A stretch of 64,000 bases of DNA from Burkholderiaceae bacterium (lineage in GTDB: Bacteria > Pseudomonadota > Gammaproteobacteria > Burkholderiales > Burkholderiaceae_C), in NCBI GenBank assembly GCA_026125795.1, contig JAHCKM010000002.1, positions 124,001 through 188,000 of the forward strand, given 5' to 3'. The notes beneath the pieces were generated by a model. That model did not search any database. It was not told the DNA's origin and saw nothing but the letters and a program-made list of their open reading frames with translations. The stretch's first letter is position 1; each line of letters begins with the position of its first letter. This document shows positions 12,076 through 34,203 of the stretch, one piece after another. The position numbers and the translations under genes were made by a program.

Positions 12076-12696
12076 GTGACGCCGAGACCGAAGAAGACGT
12101 CGTACCACCATGGCAACCTGCGCGAGGAGCTCGTCGCCGAGGGCATCGCCATCCTGGAGACGCAAGGCGCGCAGGCGTTGACGATGCGCGAGGTGGCGCG
12201 CCGTCTGGGCGTCACGCAGACCGCGCCGCTGCACCACTTCGAGAGCAAGAGCGCGCTGCTGGCCGCGATCGCGGCACAGGGCTTTCGGCAGCTGTTCGAC
12301 CACCGCATGGCGGCTTTGAAGGGCAAGCGCGACCCCGACGAGCGCTTGATGGCGGTGCTGATGGCCTACGTCGAGTTCGCGCTCGCGCATCCGGCGCTGT
12401 ATCACCTGATGCACGGCCCCGAGATCCCCGACAAGACGCTGCACCCCGAACTCAACGACGCCGCCACGCGCTCCTACAGCCTTCTGGAGGCCGCGGTGGG
12501 CGACTACCTCATCGCGCACGAAGGCTCGATGGCGCGCAGCCGCGAGGCGACACTCGGCATCTGGACCGTCTGCCAGGGTGTGGCCACCGTGCTCACCAAT
12601 CCGCAGAACACGCCGCGCTACGTGCTGCGCAAGGATCCGATGGGCTTCTCGCGCCGCACCTTCGAGACCTTCATCCGCGGCGTCAGCGGGCGGTGA
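12076..12696 (+). CDS. TetR/AcrR family transcriptional regulator
   Basis: A 206-residue one-component repressor. The N-terminal HTH spans about residues 10-57 (REELVAEGIAILETQGAQAL, then MREVARRLGVTQTAPLHHF). This matches the TetR tetrahelical signature with a WHG-type C-terminal ligand domain (HPALYHLMHGPEI). The start is GTG 12076; no in-frame ATG fits the family N-terminus. It is divergent from the VOC gene (96 bp gap) and overlaps the convergent CoA-transferase gene by 14 nt at the 3' ends. The ligand is unknown; the surrounding acyl-CoA genes suggest a CoA ester. Confidence 0.88.
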   Translation: MTPRPKKTSYHHGNLREELVAEGIAILETQGAQALTMREVARRLGVTQTAPLHHFESKSALLAAIAAQGFRQLFDHRMAALKGKRDPDERLMAVLMAYVEFALAHPALYHLMHGPEIPDKTLHPELNDAATRSYSLLEAAVGDYLIAHEGSMARSREATLGIWTVCQGVATVLTNPQNTPRYVLRKDPMGFSRRTFETFIRGVSGR

Positions 12697-13933
12697 GGGT
12701 CGGGTCGCGCGCGGGCCCCGCGACGATGCCGGCATCGTGCAGCCGGCCCACTTCGCCGGCGGCCAGGCCGAGCACGTCGTGCAGCACCTCGTCGGTGTCG
12801 GCGCCCAGCAGCGGGGCCGGGCGCACGGGAGTGCGCGGCTCGCCGCACAGCCGCAACGCGGCGCCGGCCGCCAGGTGCTCACCGACGCCGGGCGTGGCGA
12901 TGCGCTCGAAAATCGGGTTGGACAATCCGAGCCTCGGGTCTTGGGCCAGCGCCTCGGGCGGCGTGCGGTAGGTGCCCCAGCAGACGCGGTGCGCGTCGAG
13001 CGCGCGTGCCACCTCGGCGTGCGGTCGCGCCGCGAACCAGGGCTCGAGCAGCGCCGCGATCGCGTCGCGCGCCTCGAAACGCTGTGCCTCGTCGGACAGG
13101 TCCAGCCCGGTGCTCGCCTCGAGCGCGGCCACCGCCTGGGCTGCATCGCAGGCGTCGACCAGCGCGCGCCATTGCCCGCTGGAGATGCCCACCACCATCA
13201 CGCGCCGGCCGTCGGCGGTGGCGAAGTCGCGCCCGAACGCGCCGTACACGTGGTTGCCGATCGACGGCCGCTGCTGCTGCAGCAGCTCGGCCTCGGCCAG
13301 CACGCCCAGGTGCGACAGCATCGCGTACGCCAGGTCCGACAGCGCGAGCTTCAGTTCAGCGCCGGTGCCGCAGCGACGCCGCTGTTCGACCGCGGCGGAC
13401 ACCGCGAAGGCCGCGTGGAAGGCGCAGGCGATGTCCCATGCCGGCAGCACCTGGTTGACCGGCCGCTGCGCGGTGCCGCCGCCGGTCACCGCCGGATAGC
13501 CGGTCGCGCACTGCACCGTGTAGTCCACTGCGGTGCCGCCGTCGCCATGGCCCTGGATCGTGCAGGTGACCACGTCGGGCCGGCGGGCCGCGAGCACGCG
13601 ATGCGCCAGCCAGGGCGTGCCGATGTTCGTCAGCAGCACGCCGCCTTCTTGGCCGTGGCTGTCCGGCGCGCAGATCAGCGCCTGCACCAGCTCGCGTCCC
13701 TCCGGGCGCTTCAGATCGATGGCGATCGAGCGCTTGTCCTTGTTGAGCCCGGTCCAGTAGAGGCTGCGGCCGCCGGGCATGCGCGGCAGGCGGCCGTGGT
13801 CGATGCCGCCGCCGATCATGTCCACGCGGATCACGTCGGCACCGTGCTGCGCCAGCGTCAGTCCGGCCAGCGGCGCGGCGACGAAGGCCGAGCTCTCGAC
13901 GACACGCAGACCCTGCAGCAGGCTGTAGGTCAC
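12683..13933 (-). CDS. Type III CoA-transferase (CaiB/BaiF family)
   Basis: A 416-residue family III CoA-transferase, which moves CoA between carboxylic acids. It begins LLQGLRVVESSAFVAAPLAG, followed by LAQHGADVIRVD, the conserved CoA-binding N-terminal fold, and GRSLYWTGLNKDKRSIAIDL, the classic family segment. The start is GTG 13933; a longer in-frame TTG start at 14029 would add 32 unrelated residues. A 25-codon micro-ORF (ATG 14007) ends in TGA overlapping the GTG by 4 nt, which could couple translation. It is divergent from the Bug-type binding protein gene, so its substrate may be an acid taken up by that system. Confidence 0.88.
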   Translation of the reverse strand: MTYSLLQGLRVVESSAFVAAPLAGLTLAQHGADVIRVDMIGGGIDHGRLPRMPGGRSLYWTGLNKDKRSIAIDLKRPEGRELVQALICAPDSHGQEGGVLLTNIGTPWLAHRVLAARRPDVVTCTIQGHGDGGTAVDYTVQCATGYPAVTGGGTAQRPVNQVLPAWDIACAFHAAFAVSAAVEQRRRCGTGAELKLALSDLAYAMLSHLGVLAEAELLQQQRPSIGNHVYGAFGRDFATADGRRVMVVGISSGQWRALVDACDAAQAVAALEASTGLDLSDEAQRFEARDAIAALLEPWFAARPHAEVARALDAHRVCWGTYRTPPEALAQDPRLGLSNPIFERIATPGVGEHLAAGAALRLCGEPRTPVRPAPLLGADTDEVLHDVLGLAAGEVGRLHDAGIVAGPARDPTLTAR

Positions 13934-18970: not shown

Positions 18971-19325
18971 CGTGGCCGACCCATCCGGCGCGCGACGATG
19001 AGCCCCACCCGGACATCCGCGACGCGGGGCGTGCGCCGTGCCACGGTTGCCCGGCGAGGACCAGCGCGGTGCTTCCGCGGTCAGCTCCATCGTCGTGTCT
19101 GTCAGCGACGCTAGACGAGCAGTTTGCGGGCGTTGATCGCCCCTAACCGGTGCGCGCGGCGGTGAGAGGCACCGTGATCAGGCGCGGCACCACCCGTGCA
19201 GCTGACCGCGCTCGCCGGCCAGAGCGCCGTGCAATCACCTATGACAAGGAGCGCCGGGCCGCGTGCCGCGGCGTCGCGTGGCACACAACCTGCTAGTCAT
19301 GACCTGACATAACAGGTTGCCATCG
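18971..19325. other. Intergenic region, no gene seen (355 bp)
   Basis: No ORF with convincing protein features or start context was found on either strand. A short GGGCG-TTGAT-CGCCC hairpin lies near 19131-19145 but lacks a U-run. The last 40 bp hold the palindromic elements described for the GntR gene. The acyl-CoA operon probably ends here. Confidence 0.6.
19286..19319. promoter_or_regulatory. Candidate GntR (HutC-type) autoregulatory operator
   Basis: CAACCTG (19286-19292) and CAGGTTG (19313-19319) form a perfect 7-bp inverted repeat across 20 bp. GTCATGAC lies between them as a perfect 8-bp palindrome. The stretch ends 7 bp before the GntR start codon. HutC-type repressors usually bind small palindromes at their own promoters, so autoregulation of the downstream locus is likely. 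Confidence 0.5.
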
Positions 19326-20105
19326 ATGAACGCGATTTCAAAACTCTCGCCGGCCGCCGATGCCAAGGTGGTGGCGATGTCGTCGGTGCCGATGCACGCG
19401 CAGATCCGCGAGATCATCCGCCGGCGCGTGCTCGACGGCACCTATGCGCCGCACTCGCAGATGCCGTCGGAGAGCCAGATGATGGAGGCGTTCGCGGTCA
19501 GCCGCATCACCGTGCGGCAGGCGCTGGGCGACCTGCAGAAGGAAGGTCTCATCTTCAAGGTGGCGGGCAAGGGCAGCTTCGTCGCCAAGCCCAAGGCGTT
19601 CCAGAACCTGTCGCGGCTGCAAGGCTTCGGCGAAGCGATGGCGCCGGCCGGCTATGAGACCTTTTCGCAGGTGCTGAGCATGCGCCGCGTGCCCGCCACC
19701 GAGGTGGTGGCGCAGCGGCTGCAGCTCAAGCCGCGCGCCAAGGTGTTCGAGATCCAGCGACTGCGCTACCTGAACCGCGAGCCGATCTCGGTCGACCACA
19801 GCTACTTCCCGCTCGAGATCGGCGAGCGGCTGCGCCGCGCCGATCTGCCCAGGCGCGACATCTTCGTGATCCTCGAAAACGACTACGGCCTGCCGCTGAC
19901 GCATGCCGACGTGCAGATCGAAGCCATCTCGGCCGACGAAGACCTGGCGCGCCACCTGCGCATCGACGAAGCCTCGCCGCTGCTGCGCATCGAGCGGCTC
20001 ACGTTTGCCGGCGAGCGCCCGGTCGACTTCGAGTACCTGTACTACCGCGGCGACGCCTTCCAGTACCGCCTGCGCATCGAACGCACCGAGGAGCGCCGCG
20101 CATGA
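19326..20105 (+). CDS. GntR family regulator, HutC subfamily (UTRA domain)
   Basis: A 259-residue one-component regulator. The winged helix occupies about residues 20-85 (PMHAQIREIIRRRVLDG, QMPSESQMMEAF, SRITVRQALGDLQKEG). It is followed by a UTRA ligand-sensing domain ending YLYYRGDAFQYRLRIER, the typical HutC-family C-terminus. ATG 19326 lies 7 bp after a palindrome. Its stop overlaps the ATG of the flavoprotein gene by 4 nt, so it is the first gene of the locus and almost certainly its regulator. The ligand is unknown, presumably the compound the locus imports or an intermediate. Confidence 0.9.
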   Translation: MNAISKLSPAADAKVVAMSSVPMHAQIREIIRRRVLDGTYAPHSQMPSESQMMEAFAVSRITVRQALGDLQKEGLIFKVAGKGSFVAKPKAFQNLSRLQGFGEAMAPAGYETFSQVLSMRRVPATEVVAQRLQLKPRAKVFEIQRLRYLNREPISVDHSYFPLEIGERLRRADLPRRDIFVILENDYGLPLTHADVQIEAISADEDLARHLRIDEASPLLRIERLTFAGERPVDFEYLYYRGDAFQYRLRIERTEERRA

Positions 20106-21832
20106 AGACGATCGAGATGGAGTTCGACCTCGTCGTCATCGGCGGCGGCACCGGCGGCCCGATGGCCGCGGTGAAGGCCAAGGAGCGGAACCCGAAGCTG
20201 CGTGTGCTGCTGATCGACAAGGCCAACGTCAAGCGCAGCGGCGCGATCTCGATGGGCATGGACGGGCTGAACAACGCCGTCATCCCCGGCCACGCCACGC
20301 CCGAGCAGTACGTGAAGGAGATCACCGTCGCCAATGACGGCATCGTCGACCAGCAAGCGGTGATGGCCTACGCGTCACGCAGCTTCGAGATGATCCAGGA
20401 GCTCGATCGCTGGGGCGTCAAGTTCGAGAAGGACGAGACCGGCGACTACTCGGTGCGCAAGGTGCATCACCTCGGCGCCTATGTGCTGCCGATGCCCGAA
20501 GGGCACCACATGAAGCGCATCCTCTACCGCCAGCTCAAGCGCGCGCGGGTGGAGATCACCAACCGCGTCGTCGTCACGCGCGTGCTCACCGGCGCCGACG
20601 GCGCGGTGGCCGCGGTGATGGGCTTCGACTGCCGCAGCGCCGAGCTGTACCTGATCCGCACGAAGGCGGCGGTGATCAGCACGGGCGCGGCCGGGCGCCT
20701 GGGGCTGCCGGCGTCGGGCTACCTGATGGGCACCTACGAGAACCCGACCAACTGCGGCGACGGCCATGCGATGGCCTATCACGCCGGTGCCGACCTGGCC
20801 AACCTCGAGTGTTTCCAGATCAACCCGCTGATCAAGGACTACAACGGCCCGGCCTGCGCCTACGTGACCGGGCCGCTGGGCGGCTACACCGCCAATGCGC
20901 GTGGCGAGCGCTTCATCGAGTGCGACTACTGGAGCGGTCAGATGATGCAGGAGTTCCACAAGGAACTCGTGAGCGGCAACGGCCCGGTGTTTCTCAAGCT
21001 CGATCACCTGGCCGAGGAGACGATCCAGGAGATCGAGACCATCCTGCACAGCAACGAGCGGCCGAGCCGCGGCCGCTTCCACGACAAGCGCGGCACCGAC
21101 TACCGCCAGCAGATGGTCGAGATGCATATCTCGGAGATCGGCTTCTGCAGCGGCCACAGCGCGTCGGGCATCCACATCAACGCGCGCGGCGAGACCTCGG
21201 TGAAGGGCCTGTACGCCGCCGGCGACTGCGCCAGCGTGCCGCACAACTACATGCTCGGGGCCTTCGTCTACGGCAAGCTGTGCGGCGAGAACGCCGCCGA
21301 CCACTGCAGCGGCGTTACCCACGGGGCTGCCGACGGCGATGCCATCGCGGCCGAGGCCGCGCGCATCCAGGCGCCGCTGCAGCGCAGCGGCGGGCTGACG
21401 CCGTTTCAGATCGAATACAAGACGCGCCGCCTGGTCAACGACTACCTGCAGCCGCCCAAGGTCACCAGCAAGTTCCTGATCGCGCTGCGCCGCTTCGGCG
21501 AGATCCGCGAGGACCTCGGCGCGATGTCGGCGGGCAACCCGCACGAGCTGATGCGGGCGATGGAAACGCACTCCATCCTCGACTGCGCCGAGATGGCCGC
21601 GCACGCGTCGCTGTTCCGCACCGAGAGCCGCTGGGGGCTGTACCACCATTACGTCGACCACCCCGAGCGCGACGACACGAACTGGTTCTGCCACTCGCTG
21701 CTCAGCCGCGATGCCAACGGGCGCGTGGCGCTGCGCAAGAAGCCGGTCGAGCCGTACATCGTGCCGATCGACGACCAGGAGCGCACCGCCTACCAGCGGC
21801 TGCGCGTGGCCACCGGCGCACGCGCAGCCTGA
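20102..21832 (+). CDS. AprA-like / fumarate reductase-family FAD flavoprotein subunit
   Basis: A 576-residue FAD enzyme. The dinucleotide motif is DLVVIGGGTGGPMAAVKAKE, followed by a VLLIDKANVKRSGAISMGM segment resembling the DKA-RSGA region of adenylylsulfate reductase alpha subunits. A second FAD-contact motif is GLYAAGDCASVPHNYMLGAF. It lacks succinate-dehydrogenase signatures such as the HPT catalytic loop in obvious form, so it is probably neither succinate dehydrogenase nor classic fumarate reductase. The directly following AprB-like ferredoxin gives an AprAB-like pair. Because APS reductase partners (sulfate adenylyltransferase, Qmo) are absent, the substrate is probably different. Coupled to gntR by a 4-nt overlap. 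Confidence 0.85.
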   Translation: MKTIEMEFDLVVIGGGTGGPMAAVKAKERNPKLRVLLIDKANVKRSGAISMGMDGLNNAVIPGHATPEQYVKEITVANDGIVDQQAVMAYASRSFEMIQELDRWGVKFEKDETGDYSVRKVHHLGAYVLPMPEGHHMKRILYRQLKRARVEITNRVVVTRVLTGADGAVAAVMGFDCRSAELYLIRTKAAVISTGAAGRLGLPASGYLMGTYENPTNCGDGHAMAYHAGADLANLECFQINPLIKDYNGPACAYVTGPLGGYTANARGERFIECDYWSGQMMQEFHKELVSGNGPVFLKLDHLAEETIQEIETILHSNERPSRGRFHDKRGTDYRQQMVEMHISEIGFCSGHSASGIHINARGETSVKGLYAAGDCASVPHNYMLGAFVYGKLCGENAADHCSGVTHGAADGDAIAAEAARIQAPLQRSGGLTPFQIEYKTRRLVNDYLQPPKVTSKFLIALRRFGEIREDLGAMSAGNPHELMRAMETHSILDCAEMAAHASLFRTESRWGLYHHYVDHPERDDTNWFCHSLLSRDANGRVALRKKPVEPYIVPIDDQERTAYQRLRVATGARAA

Positions 21833-21874
21833 AGCGCGGCGCGCCCGCATCCCATCCCGATCCCGGAGCTCCGC

Positions 21875-22108
21875 ATGACCCTTGCCGCCACCCTCACCCA
21901 AGTGCCGGTCCGCGTCGACGAATCCAAGTGCATCGCCGAGAAGGGCTGCACCGTCTGCGTCGACGTGTGTCCGCTCGACGTGCTCGCGATCGACCTGGTG
22001 AGCAAGAAGGCGCACATGAAGTTCGACGAGTGCTGGTACTGCCTGCCGTGCGAGCAGGACTGCCCCACCGGCGCGATCACCGTCGACATTCCCTATCTGC
22101 TGCGCTGA
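21875..22108 (+). CDS. AprB-like 2[4Fe-4S] ferredoxin
   Basis: A 77-residue dicluster ferredoxin. Cys motif 1 is CIAEKGCTVCVDVCP (an extended first spacing as in AprB) and motif 2 is CWYCLPCEQDCP (CxxCxxCxxxCP). The aromatic CWYC resembles the AprB CWEC motif. The C-terminus stops soon after (DIPYLLR), without the long tail of true AprB. It sits 42 bp after the flavoprotein gene and 13 bp before the HEAT-repeat gene, and is most likely the electron-transfer subunit of the flavoprotein. Confidence 0.9.
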   Translation: MTLAATLTQVPVRVDESKCIAEKGCTVCVDVCPLDVLAIDLVSKKAHMKFDECWYCLPCEQDCPTGAITVDIPYLLR

Positions 22109-22121
22109 GTCGAGGGCTGCG

Positions 22122-23093
22122 ATGCAAACCGATGCCCCCATGCTGCCGCGCCGCCTCGTCGATCCCGACGCCGCCGTGCGGCGGCTCGCGGTGATGGAGC
22201 TGCCGTACAGCGATGTCGACGACATCGTCGAGTTGCTGCTGCCGCGCCTGGCCGATGACGATGCGCTGGTGCGTGCCGAGGCCGTGCGCGCGCTCGAGGG
22301 GCTCGAGGAGCCGCGTGTGGTGCAGGCGCTCGCGCCGATGTTGCTCGATGCCGATACGGCAGTGCGCGAGGCCGCCGCCGGCGTGCTGGCCGAGCTGAAG
22401 GAGACGGCATCCGCGGGCCCGCTGCTGCCGCTGTTGGCGCAAGGCCCCGCCGAGGTGCGCGCGCACGCCTTCCGTGCCGTGCGCGCACTGCGTTGCACGC
22501 AGGCGTTCGAGCCGGCGCTGCGCTCGCTGCGCGATCCCGATGCGGCCGTGCGCCGCGAGGCGGTGGGCGTGCTCGGCTACCTGAAGGACGCGGCGGCGAT
22601 CGGCGAGCTGGCCGAGGTCGCGGCCAACGATCCCGACACCGAGGTGCGCCGCATCGCGGTGGGCGCACTCGGTTATGCCAGCAGCGTCAGCGTGCTGCCG
22701 GCGCTCACGCGGGCGCTCGACGACAGCGGCTGGATGGTGCGCGAGGAGGCTGCGCAGACCATCGGCAAGCTGCGGCTCGCGCGCGCGATTCCCGATCTGG
22801 TGAAGGCGATGCACGACGAGTACTGGCAGGTGCGCGTCAAGGCGGCGCGCAGCCTCGGACTGCTGAAGGCAGAGGCCGGGCTGCCGTCCCTGGTGGAGTC
22901 GCTCGCACACGGCATCAGCAACCTGCGCAAGGAAGCCGCGATCGCGCTCGGCGAGATCGGCGACACCCGCGCGATAGCGCCGCTGGAGCAGGCGCTGGCC
23001 GATCCGGACCCCGACGTGCGCAAGCTCGCCCGGCTGGCGCTCACGGCCATCGGCCAGGCGCAGCGGGCGCGCGCGCAAGGAGACCCGGCATGA
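22122..23093 (+). CDS. HEAT-repeat (PBS lyase-type) protein
   Basis: A 323-residue all-helical protein made of about nine to ten HEAT/PBS-lyase-type repeats from residue 10 to the C-terminus. Units have the form [17 protein letters not shown], each about 31 residues. No signal peptide, Cys motifs or membrane helix. Such repeats serve as protein-binding scaffolds or in cofactor-lyase and maturation factors. It is sandwiched between two ferredoxin genes, its stop overlapping the next ATG by 4 nt, so it probably docks ferredoxin to the flavoprotein or helps assemble the complex. That role is inference. Confidence 0.85.
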
Positions 23094-23419
23094 CCTTCGT
23101 CGTGACGGAAGCCTGCATCCGCTGCAAGTACACCGATTGTGTGTCGGTGTGCCCGGTCGACTGTTTCCACGAGGGGCCGAACTTCCTGGTGATCGATCCC
23201 CAGGCATGCATCGACTGTGCGGTGTGCGTGCCGGAGTGCCCGGTGGGCGCGATCGTGGCCGACACCGATCTGCCGTCGCAGCACAGCGAGTTCCTCGAGA
23301 TCAACGCCCGTCTGGCCACGCAGTGGCCGGTGATCAACCAGGCACGCGAGCCGCTGCCCGACGCCGAGCTGTGGGCCGGTGCCAGCGGCAAGCGCGCCGA
23401 ACTGCTCGAGAGCGCCTGA
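23090..23419 (+). CDS. FdxA-type [3Fe-4S]/[4Fe-4S] ferredoxin
   Basis: A 109-residue seven-iron-type ferredoxin. The N-terminus [20 protein letters not shown] is followed by [11 protein letters not shown] and [16 protein letters not shown]. The first motif has the spacing of Azotobacter-type FdI, and the C-terminal extension of about 45 residues is typical of FdxA. It is coupled to the HEAT gene by an ATGA overlap. With ferredoxin-NADP reductase encoded 3.8 kb downstream, it probably relays electrons between NADP(H) and the flavoprotein/AprB-like pair. Confidence 0.93.
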
Positions 23420-23449
23420 GGCGGCCTCGCGCACCAACTGGGAACCTGC

Positions 23450-23575
23450 ATGTCCGACAAGGCGACCGCGCACGCCACGCGCCGGCAGACCACGACAGTG
23501 GCACTCGTCTTGCGTCAGGAGGAGACGAAGCCCACCGCCACCGTTTTTCACCTCCGAGGGGGAACCTGTTCATGA
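23450..23575 (+). CDS. Candidate 41-residue ORF overlapping the binding-protein start
   Basis: ATG 23450 opens a 41-codon frame (MSDKATAHATRRQTTT at the start, ending HLRGGTCS) whose TGA overlaps the ATG of the solute-binding protein by 4 nt. The purine-rich end of the ORF (GAGGGGGA) is also the likely ribosome-binding site of the next gene. No homology is recognised. It may be a real coupled small gene or only an open leader, and the supporting evidence is weak. Confidence 0.25.
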   Translation: MSDKATAHATRRQTTTVALVLRQEETKPTATVFHLRGGTCS

Positions 23576-24996
23576 TGCATCTCGTCTCGCGGGCGGCCAT
23601 CGCGCTGTCCCTGGCGTGCGCGGCCGCCTTCGCCGCGCAAGCACGCGAAGAGCTGGTGATCGGCATCGGCACGCAAAACACCACGACCAACACCGTGACC
23701 GGCGGCGTGGTGGTCAAGGAGCTGAAGCTGCTGGAGAAGCACCTGCCCAAGACCGGCAAGTACAAGGACATCCAGTTCAAGCTCGACTGGCAGAACTTCA
23801 CCTCCGGCCCGCCGATCACCAACGGCATGATGGCCAAGAAGCTGCACATCGGCATGATGGGTGACTACCCATTGCTGGTGGCCGGCGCCACCGGCCAGTC
23901 GCAGCCGGGCAACGAGACGCAGCTCGTGGCGATCATTGCCTACAACGCGTTCGGCTCCGGCAACGGCGTGGTGGTGCACAAGGACTCGCCGTACTACGAG
24001 TTCTCGGATCTCAAGGGCAAGCTGGTGTCGGTGCCGTTCGGCTCGGCCGCGCACGGCATGGTGCTGCAGGCGCTGCAGTCGCGCGGGCTGCCGCCGGACT
24101 TCTTCAACCTGGTGAGCCAGAGCCCCGAGGTCGGGACCACCAACCTGCAGGAAAAGAAGATCGACGCCCACGCCGACTTCGTACCGTTTGCCGACCTTCT
24201 GCCGTACCGCGGCTTCGCGCGCAAGATCTTCGACGGCGTGCAGACCGGCGTGCCCACCTTTCACGGCGTGGTGGTGCGTAAGGACTTCGCGAGCCAGTAT
24301 CCAGAAGTGGTGGTGGCCTACATCACTGCGCTGATGGAGGCCAACGCCTGGCTGAAGGCCGATCCGGTGCGCGCCGCCACCAAGATCGAGGAGTGGACCA
24401 AGATCGAGAAGGAGGTGGCCTACCTCTATCTCGGCCCCGGCGGCATCCACACGCTCGACCCCACGATCAAGCCACGCTGGCTCGACACCATCAAGACCGG
24501 CCACGGCGTGCTGACCAGCCTGAACCGTGTCAAGCCGCTGGACATCAACGCCTGGGTCAACGAGACCTACGTGCGCGAGGCGTTCAAGCTGGCCAAGCTC
24601 GACTACGACGCGCAGAAGCAGACCCTGGGCGGCTTCGACATCGGCGGCCAGGACAAGCTGTGCAAGGTGCCGGTGGGCCGTCCCAAGGAGGCGGGCGAGG
24701 TGTGGGTCGATGGCGCCGGCGTCGAGCCGTACGCCTCGCCGCTGTGCACGCTCGGTGCCATCGCTAAGGCAGAGGCATCGGGCAAGAAGGTGCGCGTGGC
24801 CTACCTGATCGACAAGTCGCTGGGCATCAAGATGTTTGCCGACAAGGCGTTCTACGCCGTGCACACCGCCGATGCGAAGAAGCCGGTGATCGTGCCGTTC
24901 CTGCTGAAGAAGGATGCGCAGGACCATGCCGCGCGCATCGGCGGCCGGCTCGCCACCTACAGCGAGGCCCTGGCGGCCGCCGCCGTGCCGTTCTGA
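23572..24996 (+). CDS. SsuA/TauA/NMT1-type ABC substrate-binding protein with NosL-like C-terminal domain
   Basis: A 474-residue exported protein. Signal peptide MMHLVSRAAIALSLACAAAF ending near AQA. Residues about 25-345 form an SsuA/TauA-like periplasmic binding fold (MMAKKLHIGMMGDYPLLV, DLKGKLVSVPFGSAAHGM, VVVRKDFASQYPEVVVAYI). Ordinary family members end there, at 310-340 residues. The extra ~120 residues (EPYASPLCTLGAIAKAEASG, FADKAFYAVHTADAKKPVIV, then HAARIGGRLATYSEAL) follow the pattern of NosL, a copper/metallochaperone-like domain of N2O reductase maturation. The fusion is the oddest feature of the locus. It is the ligand receptor for the permease and ATPase genes that follow. Confidence 0.85.
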   Translation: MMHLVSRAAIALSLACAAAFAAQAREELVIGIGTQNTTTNTVTGGVVVKELKLLEKHLPKTGKYKDIQFKLDWQNFTSGPPITNGMMAKKLHIGMMGDYPLLVAGATGQSQPGNETQLVAIIAYNAFGSGNGVVVHKDSPYYEFSDLKGKLVSVPFGSAAHGMVLQALQSRGLPPDFFNLVSQSPEVGTTNLQEKKIDAHADFVPFADLLPYRGFARKIFDGVQTGVPTFHGVVVRKDFASQYPEVVVAYITALMEANAWLKADPVRAATKIEEWTKIEKEVAYLYLGPGGIHTLDPTIKPRWLDTIKTGHGVLTSLNRVKPLDINAWVNETYVREAFKLAKLDYDAQKQTLGGFDIGGQDKLCKVPVGRPKEAGEVWVDGAGVEPYASPLCTLGAIAKAEASGKKVRVAYLIDKSLGIKMFADKAFYAVHTADAKKPVIVPFLLKKDAQDHAARIGGRLATYSEALAAAAVPF

Positions 24997-25020
24997 ACGC
25001 CGGCCAACCGGAGCTGACGA

Positions 25021-26013
25021 ATGTCGATCGCCCCGCTGCGCCGCGTCGAGGACGCGGACCTGCCCGACACGCAAGCGCTTGCCGCGGCCGTGCCCGCGGC
25101 GCGGCACCGGCTGGCCGAGGTGGTGGAAGTGCCGCGCGAGCCGCACGCGGCTCGTGCCGCGGCGCCTGCGCCGGAGGACCCGAGCGACCTGCGTTCAAGG
25201 TTCGCGAGCGCGGTGACCGGCTGGTTAGAGCGTTATGGCATCGCGGCCGCGCTGGCCGTCTGCTCGCTCGGCGGCCTGGTGCTGTTCTGGTACCTCGCTA
25301 CGCGCTGGCGCGTCGACCTGTACGTGCGCTTCACCAACATCCCCACGCCGGCCGAGGTGTGGCAGTCGGTGCTGCAGGCCGGCAGCAACGGCAAGTTCCT
25401 CACCAACATCGGCTTCAGCCTGCGCCGCATCGTGCTCGGCTTCGCGTTGGCCACGCTGCTCGGCGTGTCGATCGGCCTGCTGATCGGACGCTACCGGCGG
25501 CTGCGCGAGCTGCTGTTTCCGGCCGCGGAGGCGCTGCGCCCGATCCCGGCGATCGCGTGGGTGCCGATCTCGGTCATGCTGTGGCCCGACAACGAGGTGA
25601 GCATCGTCTTCATCACCTTCGTCGGCGCGTTCTTCCCGATCCTGCTCAACACCATCAGCGGCGTGCAGGCGGTCGACGCGGTGCTGCTGCGCGCCGGCCA
25701 GTGCCTCGGCGCCGACGAGCGGCGGCTGATGTGGCACGTGGTGCTGCCCGGCGCGGCGCCGCAGATCTTCACCGGCCTGGCGGTGGGCATGGGGGTCGCG
25801 TGGGTGTCGCTGATCGCTGCCGAGATGATCTCGGGACAGTTCGGCATCGGCTACTTCACCTGGGAAGCCTACTCGCTGATCGCCTATGCCGACATCGTGC
25901 TCGGGATGATCACGATCGGCGTGCTCGGCCTGCTGTGCAGCTGGCTGATCCGCCTGGCCGGCCAGATGCTGATGCCGTGGCTGGAGTTTTCAAAGCAGGG
26001 GGTGCGGACGTGA
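25021..26013 (+). CDS. SsuC/TauC-type ABC transporter permease
   Basis: A 330-residue inner-membrane permease. A long charged cytoplasmic N-terminus (about 65 residues) precedes six hydrophobic helices, with the coupling motif GQCLGADERRLMWHVVLPGAAPQIFTGL, split here as LGADERRLMWHVVLPGAA. This is the BPD permease fold of the sulfonate/taurine/nitrate importers. It lies 24 bp after the binding protein gene and overlaps the ATPase start (GTGA). The extended N-terminus is longer than in SsuC. Confidence 0.92.
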   Translation: MSIAPLRRVEDADLPDTQALAAAVPAARHRLAEVVEVPREPHAARAAAPAPEDPSDLRSRFASAVTGWLERYGIAAALAVCSLGGLVLFWYLATRWRVDLYVRFTNIPTPAEVWQSVLQAGSNGKFLTNIGFSLRRIVLGFALATLLGVSIGLLIGRYRRLRELLFPAAEALRPIPAIAWVPISVMLWPDNEVSIVFITFVGAFFPILLNTISGVQAVDAVLLRAGQCLGADERRLMWHVVLPGAAPQIFTGLAVGMGVAWVSLIAAEMISGQFGIGYFTWEAYSLIAYADIVLGMITIGVLGLLCSWLIRLAGQMLMPWLEFSKQGVRT

Positions 26014-26873
26014 GCGACAAACATGACGGCGGTCGCATCGAGGTGCGCGGGCTCAGCATGGTGTTCGGCAGCCCGCGCCAGCGCGTGCAGGCGGTGAATG
26101 ACGTCTCGCTGCAGGTGGAGCCCGGCGAGTTCGTCACCATCGTCGGGCCGTCGGGTTGCGGCAAGTCGACGCTGCTCAACGTGGTGGCCGGCTTCCTGCG
26201 CGCCACACAAGGCGAGGCGCTGATCGACGGCCGACCGATCGAGGGCCCCGGCGCCGATCGCGGCGTGGTGTTCCAGCAGTACTCGCTGTTCCCGTGGATG
26301 TCGGTGCGCCGCAACGTGGAGTTCGGGCTGCGCATGCAGGGCATGGCCGCGACGCAGCGCGAGACCACCGCGCGCACCTTGCTCGGGCTGGCCGGCCTGC
26401 TGGCGTTCGAGAACCACTACCCCGACCAGCTCTCCGGCGGCATGAAGCAGCGCGTGGGCATCGTGCGCGCCCTGGCCACCAGCCCGCAGGTGATGCTGAT
26501 GGACGAGCCGTTCGGCGCGCTCGATTCGCAGACGCGCGTCGTGATGCAGCAGATCCTCACCAACATGTGGCAGCGGCTGCGCCTGTCGGTGTTGTTCATC
26601 ACGCACGACATCGAGGAGGCGATCTTCCTCAGCGACCGCGTCTACGTGATGACGGCGCGTCCGGGGCGCATCAAGGCCGAGATCCAGATTCCGCTGCCGC
26701 GACCGCGCACCGCCGAGATGACGTCGTCCGTGGTGTTTGCGCAGATCCTGCACAAGCTGCGCAACCTGATCCGCGAGGAGAGCCTTGTGGCGATGGGCAG
26801 CGAGCTGGGCAGCGGCGGGCTCGAAGGCTTTGCGGTCGACGTGGGCGAGCAGCGCGTCGGCGACCTCATCTGA
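26010..26873 (+). CDS. SsuB/TauB-type ABC transporter ATP-binding protein
   Basis: A 287-residue ATPase: Walker A GPSGCGKST (about residues 44-52), VFQQYSLFPWMSV Q-loop, signature LSGGMKQRVGI, Walker B MLMDEPFGALD, and H-loop FITHDIEEA. The PW after the Q-loop phenylalanine and the LPRPR tail mark the SsuB/TauB/NrtD group. The start is GTG 26010 overlapping the permease stop. It energises uptake of the ligand bound by the NosL-tailed receptor. Confidence 0.95.
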   Translation: MSDKHDGGRIEVRGLSMVFGSPRQRVQAVNDVSLQVEPGEFVTIVGPSGCGKSTLLNVVAGFLRATQGEALIDGRPIEGPGADRGVVFQQYSLFPWMSVRRNVEFGLRMQGMAATQRETTARTLLGLAGLLAFENHYPDQLSGGMKQRVGIVRALATSPQVMLMDEPFGALDSQTRVVMQQILTNMWQRLRLSVLFITHDIEEAIFLSDRVYVMTARPGRIKAEIQIPLPRPRTAEMTSSVVFAQILHKLRNLIREESLVAMGSELGSGGLEGFAVDVGEQRVGDLI

Positions 26874-26890
26874 GCAAGCCGCCGGCCGCC

Positions 26891-27241
26891 ATGAATTCAC
26901 CCACACCGGTCGACATCGTCGACCACCAAGGCAGCGGCGTGCTCGAGATCGGCTGGGCCGACGGCGCGACGAGCCGCCTGCCGCATCGGCTGCTGCGCAT
27001 GCACTGCCGTTGCGCGGCCTGCGAACAGCAGCGGCGCCGCGGCGCCGGCCCGCGCGACGCCGGCGCGGGGCTGCGCCTGGTGCGCATCGACCCCGTCGGC
27101 GGACATGCACTGAACCTGGCCTTCAGCGACGGCCATGACCGCGGCATCTATCCGTGGGCGCTGCTGCGCCAGCTCGGCGCCTCTTCACCCACCCAACAAC
27201 CCGATTCCCCATGTCCAACACCGGCATCGAGCGCGTGCTGA
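26891..27241 (+). CDS. DUF971 (GBBH-like N-terminal) domain protein
   Basis: A 116-residue DUF971 protein: HQGSGVLEIGWADGATSRLP, LLRMHCRCAAC, and SDGHDRGIYPWALLRQLG are the family hallmarks, with the HCRCAAC cluster likely to bind metal. DUF971 resembles the N-terminal zinc-binding domain of gamma-butyrobetaine hydroxylase and is often found beside Fe-S assembly genes such as apbC/mrp. The C-terminal tail overlaps the next gene by 31 nt. In this locus it may help deliver or sense iron-sulfur clusters for the two ferredoxins. That is inference. Confidence 0.85.
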   Translation: MNSPTPVDIVDHQGSGVLEIGWADGATSRLPHRLLRMHCRCAACEQQRRRGAGPRDAGAGLRLVRIDPVGGHALNLAFSDGHDRGIYPWALLRQLGASSPTQQPDSPCPTPASSAC

Positions 27242-27987
27242 GCGTGCACCACTGGAACGACAGCCTCTTCACGTTCCGCACCACGCGCGATCCGGCGCTG
27301 CGCTTCCGCAACGGCCACTTCCTGATGCTGGGGCTGCCGGTCGACGGCAAGCCGCTGCTGCGCGCCTACAGCGTGGCTAGCGCCAACCACGACGAGCACC
27401 TGGAGTTCTTCAGCATCAAGGTGCCCCACGGGCCGCTCACATCGCGGCTGCAGCACCTGAAACCAGGCGACGAGTTGATCGTCGGGCGCAAGCCGGTCGG
27501 CAGCCTGGTGCTCGACGACCTGCGCCCCGGCCAGCACCTGTACCTGCTTTCCACCGGCACCGGGCTGGCGCCGTTCATGAGCATCATCCAGGATCCCGAG
27601 ACCTACGAGCGCTTTGAGAAGGTGGTGCTGGTGCACGGCGTGCGCCAGGTGAGCGAGCTGGCCTATGCCGACTTCATCGGGCAGCGGCTGCCGCAACACG
27701 AGTTCCTCGGCGAGCTGCTGCGCGACAAGCTCGTCTACTACCCCACCGTCACGCGCGAGCCGTTCCGCAACCGCGGCCGGCTGACCGACGTCATCGAGTC
27801 GGGCCGGCTCTTCAGCGACATCGGGTTGCCGCCGCTCGACCCGGGCGTGGACCGCGCGATGATCTGCGGCAGCGCCGCGATGCTCGCCGACTGCTGCCGT
27901 CTCCTGGATGCGCGCGGCTTTCGCATCAGCCCGCGCCAGGGCGAGCTGGGCGACTACGTGATCGAGCGCGCGTTCGTCGAGAAGTAG
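27211..27987 (+). CDS. fpr: Ferredoxin--NADP+ reductase (Fpr type)
   Basis: A 258-residue FAD enzyme exchanging electrons between NADP(H) and ferredoxin. FAD motif RAYSVAS (about residues 51-57), the LSTGTGLAPF nucleotide-binding loop, MICGSAAML, and C-terminal YVIERAFVEK with the terminal aromatic/basic end typical of bacterial subclass I Fpr. ATG 27211 lies inside the 3' end of the DUF971 gene. Its place in the locus completes an NADPH-Fpr-ferredoxin-flavoprotein electron chain. It could also serve general redox balance. Confidence 0.93.
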   Translation: MSNTGIERVLSVHHWNDSLFTFRTTRDPALRFRNGHFLMLGLPVDGKPLLRAYSVASANHDEHLEFFSIKVPHGPLTSRLQHLKPGDELIVGRKPVGSLVLDDLRPGQHLYLLSTGTGLAPFMSIIQDPETYERFEKVVLVHGVRQVSELAYADFIGQRLPQHEFLGELLRDKLVYYPTVTREPFRNRGRLTDVIESGRLFSDIGLPPLDPGVDRAMICGSAAMLADCCRLLDARGFRISPRQGELGDYVIERAFVEK

Positions 27988-27998
27988 GCGGAACCGGC

Positions 27999-29066
27999 AT
28001 GTCGGTCGATCGGCCGGCTGCCGAGCCGGCGCCGCGGCCCCTGGTGCACGCCGGCTCGCACCGCCGACGCCTGGCCGGCGCGTTGCACGCCCATTGGCCC
28101 GGCCTGCTGCTGTGCGCCGTGATCGCGTTGGCGGCCAGCTTCATCGCGCGTGTGCATGGCGGGCCGCAACTGCTGTACGCGTTGCTGTTCGGTGTGGCGT
28201 TTCACTTCCTGCATGCCGACGGCCGCATCCGGCCGGGCATCGAGCTGTGCACCGGCATCGTCCTGCGGATGGGCGTGGCACTGCTCGGTGCGCGCATCAC
28301 GCTGGAACAGATCGCGTCGCTCGGTTGGGCCGCGGCGCTGACCGTGGTGGCCTGCGTGGTCAGCACGGTCGTCGTGGGCATCGGGCTCGCGCGCCGTCTC
28401 GGGTTGAACACGGCGCAAGGCGTGCTATCCGGCGGCGCCACCGCGATCTGCGGCGCGTCGGCGGCGCTGGCCATCGCGGCGGTGCTGCCGCGCACCCGCG
28501 AGCAGGAGCGCTTCACGCTGCTGGTGGTGGTCACGGTGACCGCGTTGTCGACGATCGCGATGCTGCTGTACCCGCTGCTCGCGCATGCGCTGCAGCTGTC
28601 GCCGGCCCAGGCCGGCCTGTTCCTGGGCGGGTCGATCCACGACGTGGCGCAGGTGGTGGGATCGGGCTATCTGATGGGCCCGGCCACCGGCGACAACGCC
28701 ACGGTGGTGAAGCTGTTTCGCGTGTCGATGCTGGCACTGGTCGTGCTCGCCGCGGCCGCCGGGTTCCGCGGCGCGGGCATGGCCCCCGGCGGCGCGATGG
28801 CGCGTCCGCTCGCGCTGGTGCCGTGGTTCCTGTGGGTCTTCATGGCTCTGGTGTTGCTGCAAGCGCTGCGCCTCATGCCGTCCGTTGCACCCCTTTGGGC
28901 GAGCGAGCTGTCGCGCGGCTGCCTGGTGCTGGCGATCGCCGGGCTCGGGGTCAAGACCTCGTTCCAAGCGTTGTTCCAGACGGGCTGGCGGCCGTTCGTG
29001 CTGCTGCTGGCCGAGACCGTCTGGCTTGCTGCCGCGCTGCTGATCGCCGTCTTGCTGACACGTTGA
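27999..29066 (+). CDS. YeiH/TauZ family (UPF0324, COG2855) putative sulfate/sulfite exporter
   Basis: A 355-residue membrane protein with about ten hydrophobic helices. Family motifs include GIVLRMGVALLGARITLEQI, GGATAICGASAALAI and GGSIHDVAQVVGSGY. Members of this family, including the TauZ genes of taurine dissimilation clusters, are proposed to export sulfate or sulfite released from organosulfonates. It lies 11 bp after fpr on the same strand. Its presence is the best single hint that the locus handles a sulfur compound. The transported anion has not been proven for most members. Confidence 0.88.
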   Translation: MSVDRPAAEPAPRPLVHAGSHRRRLAGALHAHWPGLLLCAVIALAASFIARVHGGPQLLYALLFGVAFHFLHADGRIRPGIELCTGIVLRMGVALLGARITLEQIASLGWAAALTVVACVVSTVVVGIGLARRLGLNTAQGVLSGGATAICGASAALAIAAVLPRTREQERFTLLVVVTVTALSTIAMLLYPLLAHALQLSPAQAGLFLGGSIHDVAQVVGSGYLMGPATGDNATVVKLFRVSMLALVVLAAAAGFRGAGMAPGGAMARPLALVPWFLWVFMALVLLQALRLMPSVAPLWASELSRGCLVLAIAGLGVKTSFQALFQTGWRPFVLLLAETVWLAAALLIAVLLTR

Positions 29067-29078
29067 AGGCCGGGTAGA

Positions 29079-29106
29079 GCCGTTTGCGCCGACGGGAACG
29101 GCCTTT
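29079..29106 (+). terminator. Weak hairpin after the exporter gene
   Basis: GCCGTT (29079-29084) and AACGGC (29097-29102) form a 6-bp stem with a 12-nt loop, followed only by CTTTG. It could attenuate transcription between the exporter and the FMN reductase gene. The short U-run makes it a poor intrinsic terminator. Confidence 0.3.
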
Positions 29107-29138
29107 GCCGCGCGAACACATCGCCCCGGAGAAGTCGC

Positions 29139-29690
29139 ATGAGCACGATCCAGATCGCCGTCATCGTCGGCAGCCTGCGTAAGGACTCGTTCAACCGCCG
29201 GCTGGCCGCAGCGCTGGCGCATCTGGCGCCCGCCGACGTGACGCTGAAGACACTGCCGATCGATGACCTGCCGCCGTACAACCAGGACGACGACGCCCGC
29301 CAGGCCGAACCGGTCAAGCGATTGAAGGCCGACATCGTCGCCAGCCAGGGTCTGTTGTTCGTGACGCCGGAGTACAACCGATCGATCCCCGGCGTGCTGA
29401 AGAACGCCATCGACCATGCGTCGCGGCCGTACGGCAAGAACGCGTTCGCCGGCAAGCCGGCCGGAGTCATCGGCGTATCGGTCGGTGCGGTCGGCACGGC
29501 GGTGGCGCAGCAGCACCTGCGCACGGTGCTGGCCTACCTGGACGTTCCCACACTTGGCCAGCCCGAGGTGTTCCTGCAGGCCAAGGAAGGCCTGTTCACC
29601 GCCGACGGACGCATCGGACCGGACAGCCAGTCGTTCCTGCAGGGGTGGATGGATCGCTTCATCCAGTGGGTGAAGCAGCACGCGGGTTGA
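29139..29690 (+). CDS. NADPH-dependent FMN reductase / quinone reductase (ChrR-like)
   Basis: A 183-residue flavodoxin-fold reductase. Phosphate-binding loop VGSLRKDSFNRRLA (about residues 9-22), PEYNRSIPGVLKNAIDHASR, and GVSVGAVGTAVAQQHLR are the motifs of the NADPH-dependent FMN reductase family (ChrR/SsuE relatives). It may reduce quinones, FMN or chromate. GGAGAAG precedes ATG 29139. It is the last plus-strand gene of the stretch and could supply reduced FMN to the sulfur locus, or be an independent quinone reductase. Confidence 0.9.
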   Translation: MSTIQIAVIVGSLRKDSFNRRLAAALAHLAPADVTLKTLPIDDLPPYNQDDDARQAEPVKRLKADIVASQGLLFVTPEYNRSIPGVLKNAIDHASRPYGKNAFAGKPAGVIGVSVGAVGTAVAQQHLRTVLAYLDVPTLGQPEVFLQAKEGLFTADGRIGPDSQSFLQGWMDRFIQWVKQHAG

Positions 29691-32262: not shown

Positions 32263-32576
32263 CGGGCTTGCCAAACAAAAGGTGCTGCGGCGTGCGGCAA
32301 GCCTTGCCGTCAGGTGAATCGTGTCGGGGCTGTGCGGGCACGCGGTGGCTTTCCAGCCGGCTGCATTTGAGTTCTCCTTTTCCGGATGTAGCCGGCCGGC
32401 CCGGTGGCGCGACGCGTCGGCCGCCGGGCCGCTTTGCCTGACCGCGTGAGCGGAGCAAGAGCCCAGCCGCAGGCCGGCAAACAAGGGGCCGGGCCGTGTG
32501 GCAGGCGCGCGTGCTGGTCGGCCTAAGCCGGCCTTAATGTGCGGACCAGACCATGGCGACTCCAAAAGGAGTTGCC
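32263..32576. other. Intergenic region with two hairpins (314 bp)
   Basis: No gene is supported. GGCTTGCC (32265-32272) and GGCAAGCC (32296-32303) make an 8-bp stem with a 23-nt loop right after the small gene's stop. A stronger stem is formed by GGCCCGGTGGC (32398-32408) and GCCGCCGGGCC (32420-32430). Just before the cytochrome operon the sequence GCCTAAGCCGGCCTTAATG (32521-32539) contains two similar half-sites, possibly a response-regulator box. Confidence 0.5.
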
Positions 32577-32990
32577 ATGACTAGCACCCTTGGTCGTGCG
32601 CTGCGGCGCATCGCCGTGCTCACCTTTCCCGCCCACGTGGGCCTCGCGGTCGGCGCTGCGACTTCGCCCGCGCAGTGGCTTGCCGATCAGCAGCGGATCG
32701 CCGCCGCCCAGCCCGATGCCGCGCGCGGACAGAAGTTTTTCACGTCGAAGCATGGCCGCGACTGGAGCTGTTCCAGCTGCCACGGCGACGCTCCGACCGC
32801 CCCGGGGAGGCACGCATCCACCGGCAAGACCATCGCGCCGTTGGCGCCGGGGTTCAACGCCGAGCGCTTCAGCGACACGGCCAAGATCGAAAAGTGGTTT
32901 CGCCGCAACTGCAACGACGTGCTCGGCCGCGAGTGCAGCGCCGGGGAGAAGGCCGATGTCGTCGCGTACTTGATGGCGCTCAAGCCCTGA
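32577..32990 (+). CDS. DUF1924 monohaem c-type cytochrome
   Basis: A 137-residue exported cytochrome. N-terminal hydrophobic signal (about residues 8-28), haem motif CSSCHGD, and the DUF1924 C-terminal pattern RRNCNDVLGRECSAGEKADV. ATG 32577 has AAAAGGAG 6 nt upstream; an in-frame ATG at 32553 lacks a ribosome-binding site. First gene of an operon with a dihaem cytochrome, a b561-type cytochrome and a two-component system. Likely an electron carrier in the periplasm. Confidence 0.9.
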   Translation: MTSTLGRALRRIAVLTFPAHVGLAVGAATSPAQWLADQQRIAAAQPDAARGQKFFTSKHGRDWSCSSCHGDAPTAPGRHASTGKTIAPLAPGFNAERFSDTAKIEKWFRRNCNDVLGRECSAGEKADVVAYLMALKP

Positions 32991-33001
32991 GGAGCCCGGA
33001 G

Positions 33002-33469
33002 ATGAAACAACACCTCCATGCGCTGGTCGCGATGGCATTGGCGGCAGGGTCCGGGTGGGCCCAGGCCGATGAGCGGGGCCACCTGCGCACGCCCATGAGC
33101 CCCGACTACTCGAACGAATGCGCGTCTTGCCACGTGGCCTATGCCCCGGGCCTGTTGCCGGCGCCATCGTGGCAGCGGCTGATGGATTCGCTGTCGAACC
33201 ACTTTGGCACCGATGCGTCGCTCGAGCCGGCGACGCAGGCGTCGCTGACCGCCTGGCTGACGGCAAACGCCGGCAGCGGGCGCCGCACCGGCGCGGCTCC
33301 GCCGCAAGACCGCATCACCCGCAGCGCGTGGTTCGAGCGCGAGCACCGCCGCATCGCGGCTTCGGTGTGGCAGCGCCCGTCGATCAAGGGTGCGTCGAAC
33401 TGCAGCGCCTGCCACCGCGACGCGGCGGCCGGCGACTTCGAGGACGACAGGGTCGTCATTCCACGCTGA
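33002..33469 (+). CDS. Dihaem cytochrome c (Dhc family)
   Basis: A 155-residue periplasmic protein with a signal peptide (LHALVAMALAAGSGWAQA) and two haem sites, CASCH (about residue 41) and CSACH near the C-terminus. SPDYSNECASCHVAYAPGLL is typical of the dihaem cytochrome c family that pairs with cytochrome b561 proteins. 11 bp after the DUF1924 gene and 17 bp before the cytochrome b gene, so the three likely form one electron-transfer unit. Confidence 0.9.
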   Translation: MKQHLHALVAMALAAGSGWAQADERGHLRTPMSPDYSNECASCHVAYAPGLLPAPSWQRLMDSLSNHFGTDASLEPATQASLTAWLTANAGSGRRTGAAPPQDRITRSAWFEREHRRIAASVWQRPSIKGASNCSACHRDAAAGDFEDDRVVIPR

Positions 33470-33486
33470 GAAGGCAGGCACACACG

Positions 33487-34203
33487 ATGAACGAGGCATA
33501 CACGATGCGGACAACGAACGACCGTGGCGTGCTGGTGTGGGATGCGCCGGTGCGCGTGTTCCACTGGCTGCTGGTGGCGAGCTTTGCCGGTGCATGGCTG
33601 ACCGCCGAGAGCGAACGCTGGCGTCTGGTGCACGTGACGCTCGGCTATACGATGGCGGCGCTGGTGGTGTTTCGCGTCGTCTGGGGTTTCGTCGGCACCC
33701 GCCACGCGCGCTTTGCCGACTTTGTGCGCGGTCCGGTCCGCGCCTGGCAGTACGTGCGCGCGCTGGTCCAGGGCCGGCCGCAGCACCACGCGGGCCACAA
33801 CCCCGCCGGCGCACTCGCAATCGTGGCCCTGCTCGGGCTGATCGCGGTGACCGCGCTCTCGGGGTTCGCCACCTACAACGAGCTCGGCGGCGAATGGCTC
33901 GAGGAGCTGCACGAGGCCAGCGCCAACACGCTGCTGGCCGTGGCGGGCGTGCACGTGATCGGCGTGCTGGTGGGCAGCTTCGCGCACCGCGAGAACCTTG
34001 TGCGCGCGATGGTCACCGGACGCAAACACGTGCCGCCGTCCGAGGGCATCCGCCGCGCCTGGCGCAGCGTGGCCGCTCTGATGCTCGTGGCCACGGTGGG
34101 TTTCTGGACCTGGCAATGGCGCAGCGCGCCGGCGGACGTCGACGCCCAGAGCGCTGCTGCGGCCTCCCGTGCCCATCGCGGCGAGCACCACGATCGCGAT
34201 TGA
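33487..34203 (+). CDS. Cytochrome b561-type membrane protein
   Basis: A 238-residue membrane cytochrome b. It opens VLVWDAPVRVFHWLLVASF and has four main hydrophobic helices. His ligands are visible in FHWLL, VHVTLGY, HEASANTLL and GVHVIGVL. The C-terminus is hydrophilic and His/Asp-rich (HRGEHHDRD). It belongs to the b561 family that passes electrons between quinone and periplasmic cytochromes. Chosen start is ATG 33487; an internal ATG at 33505 is also possible. Confidence 0.9.
   Translation: MNEAYTMRTTNDRGVLVWDAPVRVFHWLLVASFAGAWLTAESERWRLVHVTLGYTMAALVVFRVVWGFVGTRHARFADFVRGPVRAWQYVRALVQGRPQHHAGHNPAGALAIVALLGLIAVTALSGFATYNELGGEWLEELHEASANTLLAVAGVHVIGVLVGSFAHRENLVRAMVTGRKHVPPSEGIRRAWRSVAALMLVATVGFWTWQWRSAPADVDAQSAAAASRAHRGEHHDRD

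Follow-up and report, generated by a model that had tools for sequence, protein, structure and literature searches.

A GntR-linked gene module with an AprA-like flavoprotein that may release and export sulfite from sulfonate-like compounds

Aerobic bacteria remove the sulfonate group mainly by means of oxygenases (SsuD, TauD and the aromatic dioxygenases) or lyases. Here we describe a module of genes, built around a flavoprotein that resembles AprA, which may act on sulfonate-like compounds in a different way. The module lies in a 64,000-nt stretch of DNA from a Burkholderiaceae bacterium (contig JAHCKM010000002.1, positions 124001-188000; genome of 6.57 Mb, 98.9% complete). This whole stretch is called the window below. 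Several described systems are related to the module. The adenosine phosphosulfate (APS) reductase AprAB and the phosphoadenosine phosphosulfate (PAPS) reductase of methanogens (PDB 8a8o) each pair a flavin adenine dinucleotide (FAD) flavoprotein of the fumarate reductase superfamily with a two-cluster ferredoxin subunit. For the methanogen enzyme, attack of the flavin N5 on the sulfur and an FAD-sulfite intermediate have been proposed, according to the accessible portion of PMC10322725. AsfRABC combines a flavoprotein, a ferredoxin with two [4Fe-4S] clusters and a sulfonate ATP-binding cassette (ABC) importer. As far as the available excerpt of a review goes (PMC4267179), AsfAB is required for arylsulfonate desulfonation in Pseudomonas putida S-313, asf complements ssu, and the asf regulator is of the LysR type. 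SsuEADCB and TauABCD contain a related binding protein, permease and ATPase.

We found that the window module overlaps with each of these systems and is the same as none of them. It shares with AprAB and 8a8o the N-terminal FAD region and the RSGA...N motif of the flavoprotein. In contrast to those enzymes, its nucleotide-pocket residues are replaced, a HEAT-repeat partner, an importer and an exporter are added, and there is no sat gene nearby. It has the flavoprotein, ferredoxin and importer of AsfRABC, but with a GntR-type instead of a LysR-type regulator and a flavoprotein that is only 24% identical and falls on the opposite side of our tree. Unlike SsuEADCB and TauABCD, it has no SsuD or TauD, its binding protein carries a NosL-like tail, and a likely sulfite exporter is added. 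On balance we favor the view that this is a self-contained system under GntR control that would import a sulfonate-like compound, release sulfite from it with a ferredoxin-driven flavoprotein, and export the sulfite. The features of the locus are as follows.

19303..19316, no strand assigned: operator CCTGACATAACAGG, an inverted repeat just 5' of gntR; matches CYYGWYATRWCRRG
19326..20105, + strand: GntR-family regulator with UTRA domain (Pfam UTRA 135 bits, GntR 63 bits)
20102..21832, + strand: AprA-like FAD flavoprotein of the NF006131/PRK08275 family (NF006131 1058.4 bits, cut-off 587)
21875..22108, + strand: ferredoxin with two [4Fe-4S] clusters, AprB/AsfB-like (Fer4 domains; AprB matches)
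22122..23093, + strand: HEAT-repeat partner protein (HEAT_2 170 bits)
23090..23419, + strand: FdxA-type ferredoxin (NF045490 164 bits, cut-off 135)
23572..24996, + strand: periplasmic binding protein, TauA/SsuA-like, with NosL-like C-terminal domain (profile matches TauA 6ssy and NosL 7og7)
25021..26013, + strand: ABC permease (BPD_transp_1 81 bits)
26010..26873, + strand: ABC ATPase (ABC_tran 116 bits)
26891..27241, + strand: DUF971 (GBBH-like_N) protein, possibly Fe-S related (PF06155 82.7 bits)
27211..27987, + strand: ferredoxin-NADP reductase, Fpr-like (NF008178 151 bits, below the cut-off of 390)
27999..29066, + strand: YeiH-family membrane exporter, likely for sulfite (PF03601 216 bits, cut-off 24.5)
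29139..29690, + strand: flavin mononucleotide (FMN)-reductase-like gene, last of the twelve genes

An earlier note on this DNA had listed twelve genes in this order, all on the + strand, and we confirmed all of them. It had also described one-directional packing with 4-nt overlaps. The direction held, but such overlaps occur at only 3 of the 11 junctions (at 20102, 23090 and 26010); the others include one 31-nt overlap and gaps, two of them of 152 nt and 72 nt. The FMN-reductase-like gene probably lies outside the conserved module: when queried along with the module genes, it had no match above 30% identity in any of 80 other loci. The unit is therefore better given as 19303-29066. A scan of the locus showed nothing promoter-like; its 5 terminator-like sites, all on the opposite strand, compare with 4.4 in shuffled sequences.

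The 80 loci are the best of 175 encoding stretches found in one scan of genome contigs. The genes for GntR, the flavoprotein, its ferredoxin, the HEAT protein, the binding protein, the permease, the ATPase and DUF971 recur in them in the same direction, with a GntR orthologue 5' of the flavoprotein gene in most; FdxA and Fpr recur in part of them. This conservation rules out chance. The earlier note had held that a lack of co-occurrence would speak against its proposal; in other genomes the genes do occur together as a unit. The core comprises the flavoprotein, the AprB-like ferredoxin, the HEAT protein, the NosL-tailed TauA/SsuA-like importer and usually DUF971, and it moves as one module, plasmids included. 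Of 86 loci, 85 gave a usable frame for the flavoprotein, 84 for the ferredoxin, 81 for the HEAT protein (one a 10-aa mis-call, in L045) and 71 for the binding protein; several of the loci end early. In contrast, the flanks are not conserved. With our own gene caller and frame grouping, no group of non-module frames occurred in more than 10 of the 86 loci. The caller was noisy in high-GC DNA (L013, L029, L037 and L058 appeared to be without a flavoprotein that tblastn found), so counts are based on tblastn, hidden Markov models (HMMs) and Pfam.

The flavoprotein family is widespread and patchy. Its members are 55-90% identical in the rows compared, which extend from Burkholderiales to a cyanobacterium and an actinobacterium. 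In the cyanobacterium Pseudanabaena (60% identical), the importer, flavoprotein, ferredoxin and HEAT protein stand together with YeiH and TauE/SafE, both in line with the core, and with an Mrp/NBP35 Fe-S carrier whose gene follows that of the HEAT protein and hints at an Fe-S link for DUF971. In the actinobacterium Tsukamurella (55% identical), there is no separate HEAT gene; one long flavoprotein-HEAT gene lies beside genes for GntR, the ferredoxin and the importer. Members over the NF006131 cut-off came from 6 of 60 relatives and, in a class-wide survey, from 6 of 370 genomes (the source genome included in both); neither survey had one above it among its 14 control genomes. In a sample of the genus, 1 of 6 genomes had such a member; three of the six are less than 90% complete. 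Plasmid records with any match to the family numbered 213, of which 52 matched at 60% identity or more.

The earlier note had called the system a candidate for an undescribed one. We found no paper on it in the open literature, but the family already has entries in NCBIfam under a generic fumarate reductase name. The window flavoprotein is a member of NF006131 (PRK08275), and NF010374 (PRK13800) agrees in length and profile with the flavoprotein-HEAT fusion, its positions 9-568 matching the flavoprotein and 612-896 the HEAT protein. Both are named only as succinate dehydrogenase/fumarate reductase. The window protein fits neither that name nor that of L-aspartate oxidase: it failed the models for fumarate reductase/succinate dehydrogenase (TIGR01812, 171 bits against a cut-off of 567) and for NadB (TIGR00551, 102.6 against 452.75). 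Its best PDB match is the FAD (alpha) subunit of methanogen PAPS reductase, 8a8o (E 3.7e-59). In a tree built without row L123, it was split from SdhA and FrdA at 98/99 support, with long branches, and NadB fell on the other side. The flavoprotein thus lies on the AprA side. Grouping with an enzyme of unrelated function, which the earlier note had said would count against its proposal, was not seen for aspartate oxidase or for SdhA/FrdA. We used only this broad split, since the branches of AsfA, NadB, FrdA and a flavoprotein from locus L110 are long. The last of these, a 561-aa protein (L110/L124, G045:C19), is ~31% identical to the window protein, lies on the same side of the tree, and is perhaps a third AprA-like family.

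Judged by its sequence, the window flavoprotein is not the genome's own AprA. The two are 25% identical, and the window protein failed the AprA model TIGR02061 (150.3 bits, cut-off 641.75). The true AprA scored 1087.1 bits in that model and is encoded on another contig, in locus L112 (G000:C4:145000-160000), together with AprB (208 bits, cut-off 135.65) and Sat (497 bits, cut-off 387). L112 contains sat (3197-4390), a membrane protein (5013-5840), aprB (5886-6365), aprA (6365-8299) and a large molybdoenzyme (10627-13575) that no model claimed above its cut-off. We read the membrane protein between sat and aprB as AprM-like, a name that no model gave it. A TauE match lies just beyond L112, at C4:160534. 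The earlier note was right that sat, qmo, dsr, tauD and ssuD are missing from the cluster, but sat, aprB and aprA are present elsewhere in the genome.

The flavoprotein keeps part of the AprA active site and has changed another part. We take Arg265, Glu141 and Trp234 (A. fulgidus numbering) to be the APS-pocket residues of AprA. They align with Leu243, Lys120 and Tyr212 of the window protein. Leu243 and Tyr212 are invariant in the nine aligned family rows; Lys120 is shared by the seven rows from Proteobacteria, while Pseudanabaena has Gln there and Tsukamurella has Arg. A family-specific loop ending in YVLPMPEG follows the replaced residues. In contrast, the RSGA...N motif is retained, with Asn57 in all nine rows. 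Asn57 corresponds to Asn74 of AprA, which together with His398 presumably belongs to the flavin site; His352 is kept in the family, one column off His398. The small ferredoxin matched AprB of 3gyx (E 2.9e-10) and of 1jnr (E 1.9e-6) and the beta subunit of PAPS reductase (E 2.9e-5), although other ferredoxins scored equally well or better.

The exporters point to sulfite. According to the accessible part of PMC12880088, Salmonella owes its sulfite resistance mainly to YeiH, and the available text of PMC12423496 treats YeiH and TauE of Hyphomicrobium as sulfite exporters. The window exporter is the sole YeiH/PF03601 copy found in the genome (TIGR00698 132.5 bits, below the cut-off of 232.6). With HMMs built here from Pfam-checked seeds, we scanned 97 loci from -4.5 to +11.5 kb; 71 were well flanked (at least 3.5 kb 5' and 8.5 kb 3' of the flavoprotein gene), and 26 were excluded for short flanks. 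On the flavoprotein strand of the 71 loci, we found YeiH in 25 and TauE/SafE in 12, that is, either in 30, both in 7 and neither in 41. The opposite strand of these loci had no YeiH and no TauE/SafE. Three arrangements predominate: YeiH follows Fpr in the window and in many Burkholderiales; YeiH, with or without TauE, precedes gntR mostly in Azoarcus, Thauera, Methyloversatilis and their kin; and TauE follows etfBA in Massilia and its kin. The adjacency of TauE is lineage-bound. Among the 60 relatives, 25 have YeiH, at 29 places, and it lies within ~8 kb of the flavoprotein gene in 3 of the 6 genomes that have the flavoprotein (chance expectation ~0.01, a hand estimate). In one other genome (G038:C15:77113-78021), the YeiH gene beside the module carries one in-frame TAG.

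The operator appears to join exporter and module. A fitted matrix exceeded the 99% level of shuffled sequences in 71 of 89 upstream regions. Because the matrix was fitted on the regions that it scored, the plain pattern CYYGWYATRWCRRG, itself drawn from these loci, gives the better count. It has 74 sites in the 97 loci (1.88 Mb), and 62 of these, in 62 loci, stand before gntR or the flavoprotein gene; the reversed pattern has none. Nine of the 12 remaining sites lie no more than 220 nt 5' of tauE, where the background rate predicts 0.03. Of the last three, those in L049 and L052 lie close to a second gntR-like frame, and the one in L010 (21466) precedes an apparent binding-protein gene that is cut off where the locus ends. 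Weaker sites precede the gene for an SsuA-family binding protein in L012 (21044; 151 bits over the part present) and a PRK06567-like gene in L130. The source genome has CYYGWYATRWCRRG once, at 19303-19316 of the window, and a backwards control also once, elsewhere; the single match is thus telling by its place and not by number. One regulator seems to govern the importer, the flavoenzyme and, in several lineages, a sulfite exporter as a separate unit. Two unrelated exporter families and the shared operator thus lend weight to the sulfite export proposed in the earlier note.

In the pathway that we favor, the NosL-tailed binding protein and its ABC transporter would import the sulfonate-like compound. 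Fpr and FdxA would relay electrons from NAD(P)H to the AprA-like flavoprotein with its AprB-like ferredoxin and HEAT protein. This complex would release sulfite from the substrate, probably reductively by way of an FAD-N5-sulfite adduct of the kind put forward for APS and PAPS reductases, and the sulfite would leave through YeiH, or through TauE/SafE in other lineages. The compound may be a source of carbon, nitrogen or energy, or it may be detoxified, since sulfite would be exported rather than merely assimilated. We hold a bolder version only tentatively: that the module encodes an O2-independent reductive desulfonase, mobile and spread over three phyla, in which an AprA-type FAD enzyme driven by NAD(P)H-reduced ferredoxin attacks the C-S or N-S sulfonate sulfur directly to give an FAD-sulfite adduct and the desulfonated product. 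The module would bring along a dedicated importer, regulator and sulfite pump.

Which way the electrons flow bears on these proposals. The ferredoxin-linked part of the loci varies by lineage and may be Fpr, a GltD-like (PRK06567-like) protein or Rnf, sometimes with an electron transfer flavoprotein (ETF), and it is on the same strand wherever found. Among the 71 well-flanked loci, a PRK06567-like NAD(P)H flavoprotein replaces Fpr in 7, and etfBA accompanies 9, some of which have Fpr too. One genome has rnfA, B, C, D, G and E co-directionally after FdxA, each over at least one Rnf model cut-off; for another genome of that genus we confirmed rnfC, G and E (L132/L133). The exchange of different ferredoxin-linked modules between lineages suggests a demand for reduced, low-potential ferredoxin electrons. 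The NAD(P)H-ferredoxin coupling that the earlier note had proposed is to that extent borne out, in some lineages. It is unlikely, in our view, that the flavoprotein instead oxidizes an imported sulfur compound, such as a sulfinate or a thiol, and hands electrons through ferredoxin to NAD(P)+ or Rnf while sulfite still leaves. ETF normally collects electrons, and the source genome has sat, aprB and aprA with a large molybdoenzyme nearby, as in sulfur oxidizers. However, Fpr and GltD-like proteins usually feed ferredoxin, Rnf in aerobes usually makes reduced ferredoxin, and the several routes to reduced ferredoxin suggest a need for low-potential electrons.

The comparison with AsfAB raises another possibility. 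The earlier note had interpreted the module along lines that our results partly support, but it did not name AsfAB, the nearest functional cousin, which has the same plan and is not orthologous. As a stand-in for AsfA we used a protein of Cupriavidus metallidurans CH34 that was inferred by position and neighbor and not by locus tag. With tags from the accessible part of PMC2864759, Rmet_4334 was interpolated between TauD copies to ~923 kb. A 549-aa flavoprotein with an adjoining ferredoxin frame lies at 928-930 kb, and a second match at 895 kb. The stand-in scored 56 bits against NF006131 and grouped with SdhA, FrdA and NadB across the 98/99 split, where long branches leave the finer order unsure. 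We dropped AsfA as the identity of the window flavoprotein; the two are 28% identical over the local match and, as noted, 24% over the alignment.

An AsfAB-like helper, whose flavoprotein and ferredoxin pass electrons to a separate desulfonating oxygenase as proposed for asfRABC of P. putida S-313, is a rather doubtful description of the window module. The equal plan (PMC4267179, in the part available) speaks for it, as do two TauD-family dioxygenases directly 5' of gntR in four Pseudomonas loci (L074, 6903-8936, where they were Pfam-checked, and L066, L076 and L084) and FMN monooxygenases near some plasmid copies of the module. Against this are the low identity and NF006131 score of the CH34 protein and the lack of any constant neighbor, the TauD group occurring in only 4 of the 86 loci. 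In addition, asf complements ssu, yet SsuD (TIGR03565) had no match in the source genome, while E. coli and other controls matched. A large frame similar to TonB receptors lies 5' of the TauD-family genes in the same four Pseudomonas loci.

The binding protein returns us to the sulfonate-like substrate. The profile of its family matched TauA (6ssy, E 1.8e-24) as the nearest solved structure, and SsuA at E 1e-19. We infer that the importer takes a sulfonate-like compound. In L010 and L012, an extra NMT1-type binding-protein gene lies directly 3' of the ATPase gene. The NosL tail described in the earlier note is supported: with matches up to E 1 counted, Pfam NosL hit 28 of the 34 binding proteins (best E 3.7e-6; the window protein only at E 0.19), and the family profile found NosL 7og7 at E 0.0037. 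The NosL fold is linked to metals. A proposed organometal system, SAO, is described in the available portion of PMC13188914. A non-sulfur or detoxification system, for an organometal or another anion and with the sulfite exporters incidental, is very unlikely: the ATPase and permease do match SaoA (271.5 bits, cut-off 360) and SaoP (135.4, cut-off 295), and a patchy, plasmid-borne occurrence suits an accessory trait, but all Sao scores are below cut-off (SaoX 18.3, cut-off 300), the cysteines of the NosL-like tail are not conserved, and the operator stands before tauE. Given these scores and cysteines, we dropped the SAO identity.

Several observations weigh against import of a sulfonate-like compound followed by release and export of sulfite. 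The pocket of the flavoprotein is not simply that of AprA, since the three residues named above are replaced. No exporter is in range in 41 of the 71 well-flanked loci, and in L025, a locus with short flanks, TauE is on the opposite strand. In 11 genomes that have the flavoprotein and were reached regardless of flanks, the source genome among them, YeiH was within ~8 kb in 3 and TauE in 0, with some contigs ending near the module (G381, G356). The operator evidence has limits too: 10 of 19 tauE genes have no CYYGWYATRWCRRG site (weaker sites precede three, in L033, L040 and L044), and the nine tauE sites are few independent events because they come from related genera. In many loci, for example in Pseudomonas, Burkholderia and rhizobia, no electron module is linked, and Rnf, Fpr and ETF can run in either direction. 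Finally, the core is on a plasmid in Acidithiobacillus caldus, which fits sulfur scavenging poorly because this organism lives on inorganic sulfur.

Elsewhere in the window, at 32553-34203, genes for a small c-type cytochrome, a further cytochrome-like frame and a cytochrome b561-like membrane protein stand in a row, resembling what we take to be an SHP cluster.

We found no description of the operon in open-access literature searched by gene names and judged by titles and match counts, a search mostly outside subscription papers, so that an earlier description is possible; a paper on desulfurizing Rhodococcus (PMC8557817) had nothing relevant on the module genes. In automatic annotation the enzyme appears as succinate dehydrogenase or fumarate reductase, a name to be read with caution. 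The module is present in common genera of soil, rhizosphere and freshwater, also on plasmids. If our reading is true, sulfonates would here be broken down by a different chemistry, with a flavoenzyme of the APS reductase type that is driven by ferredoxin.

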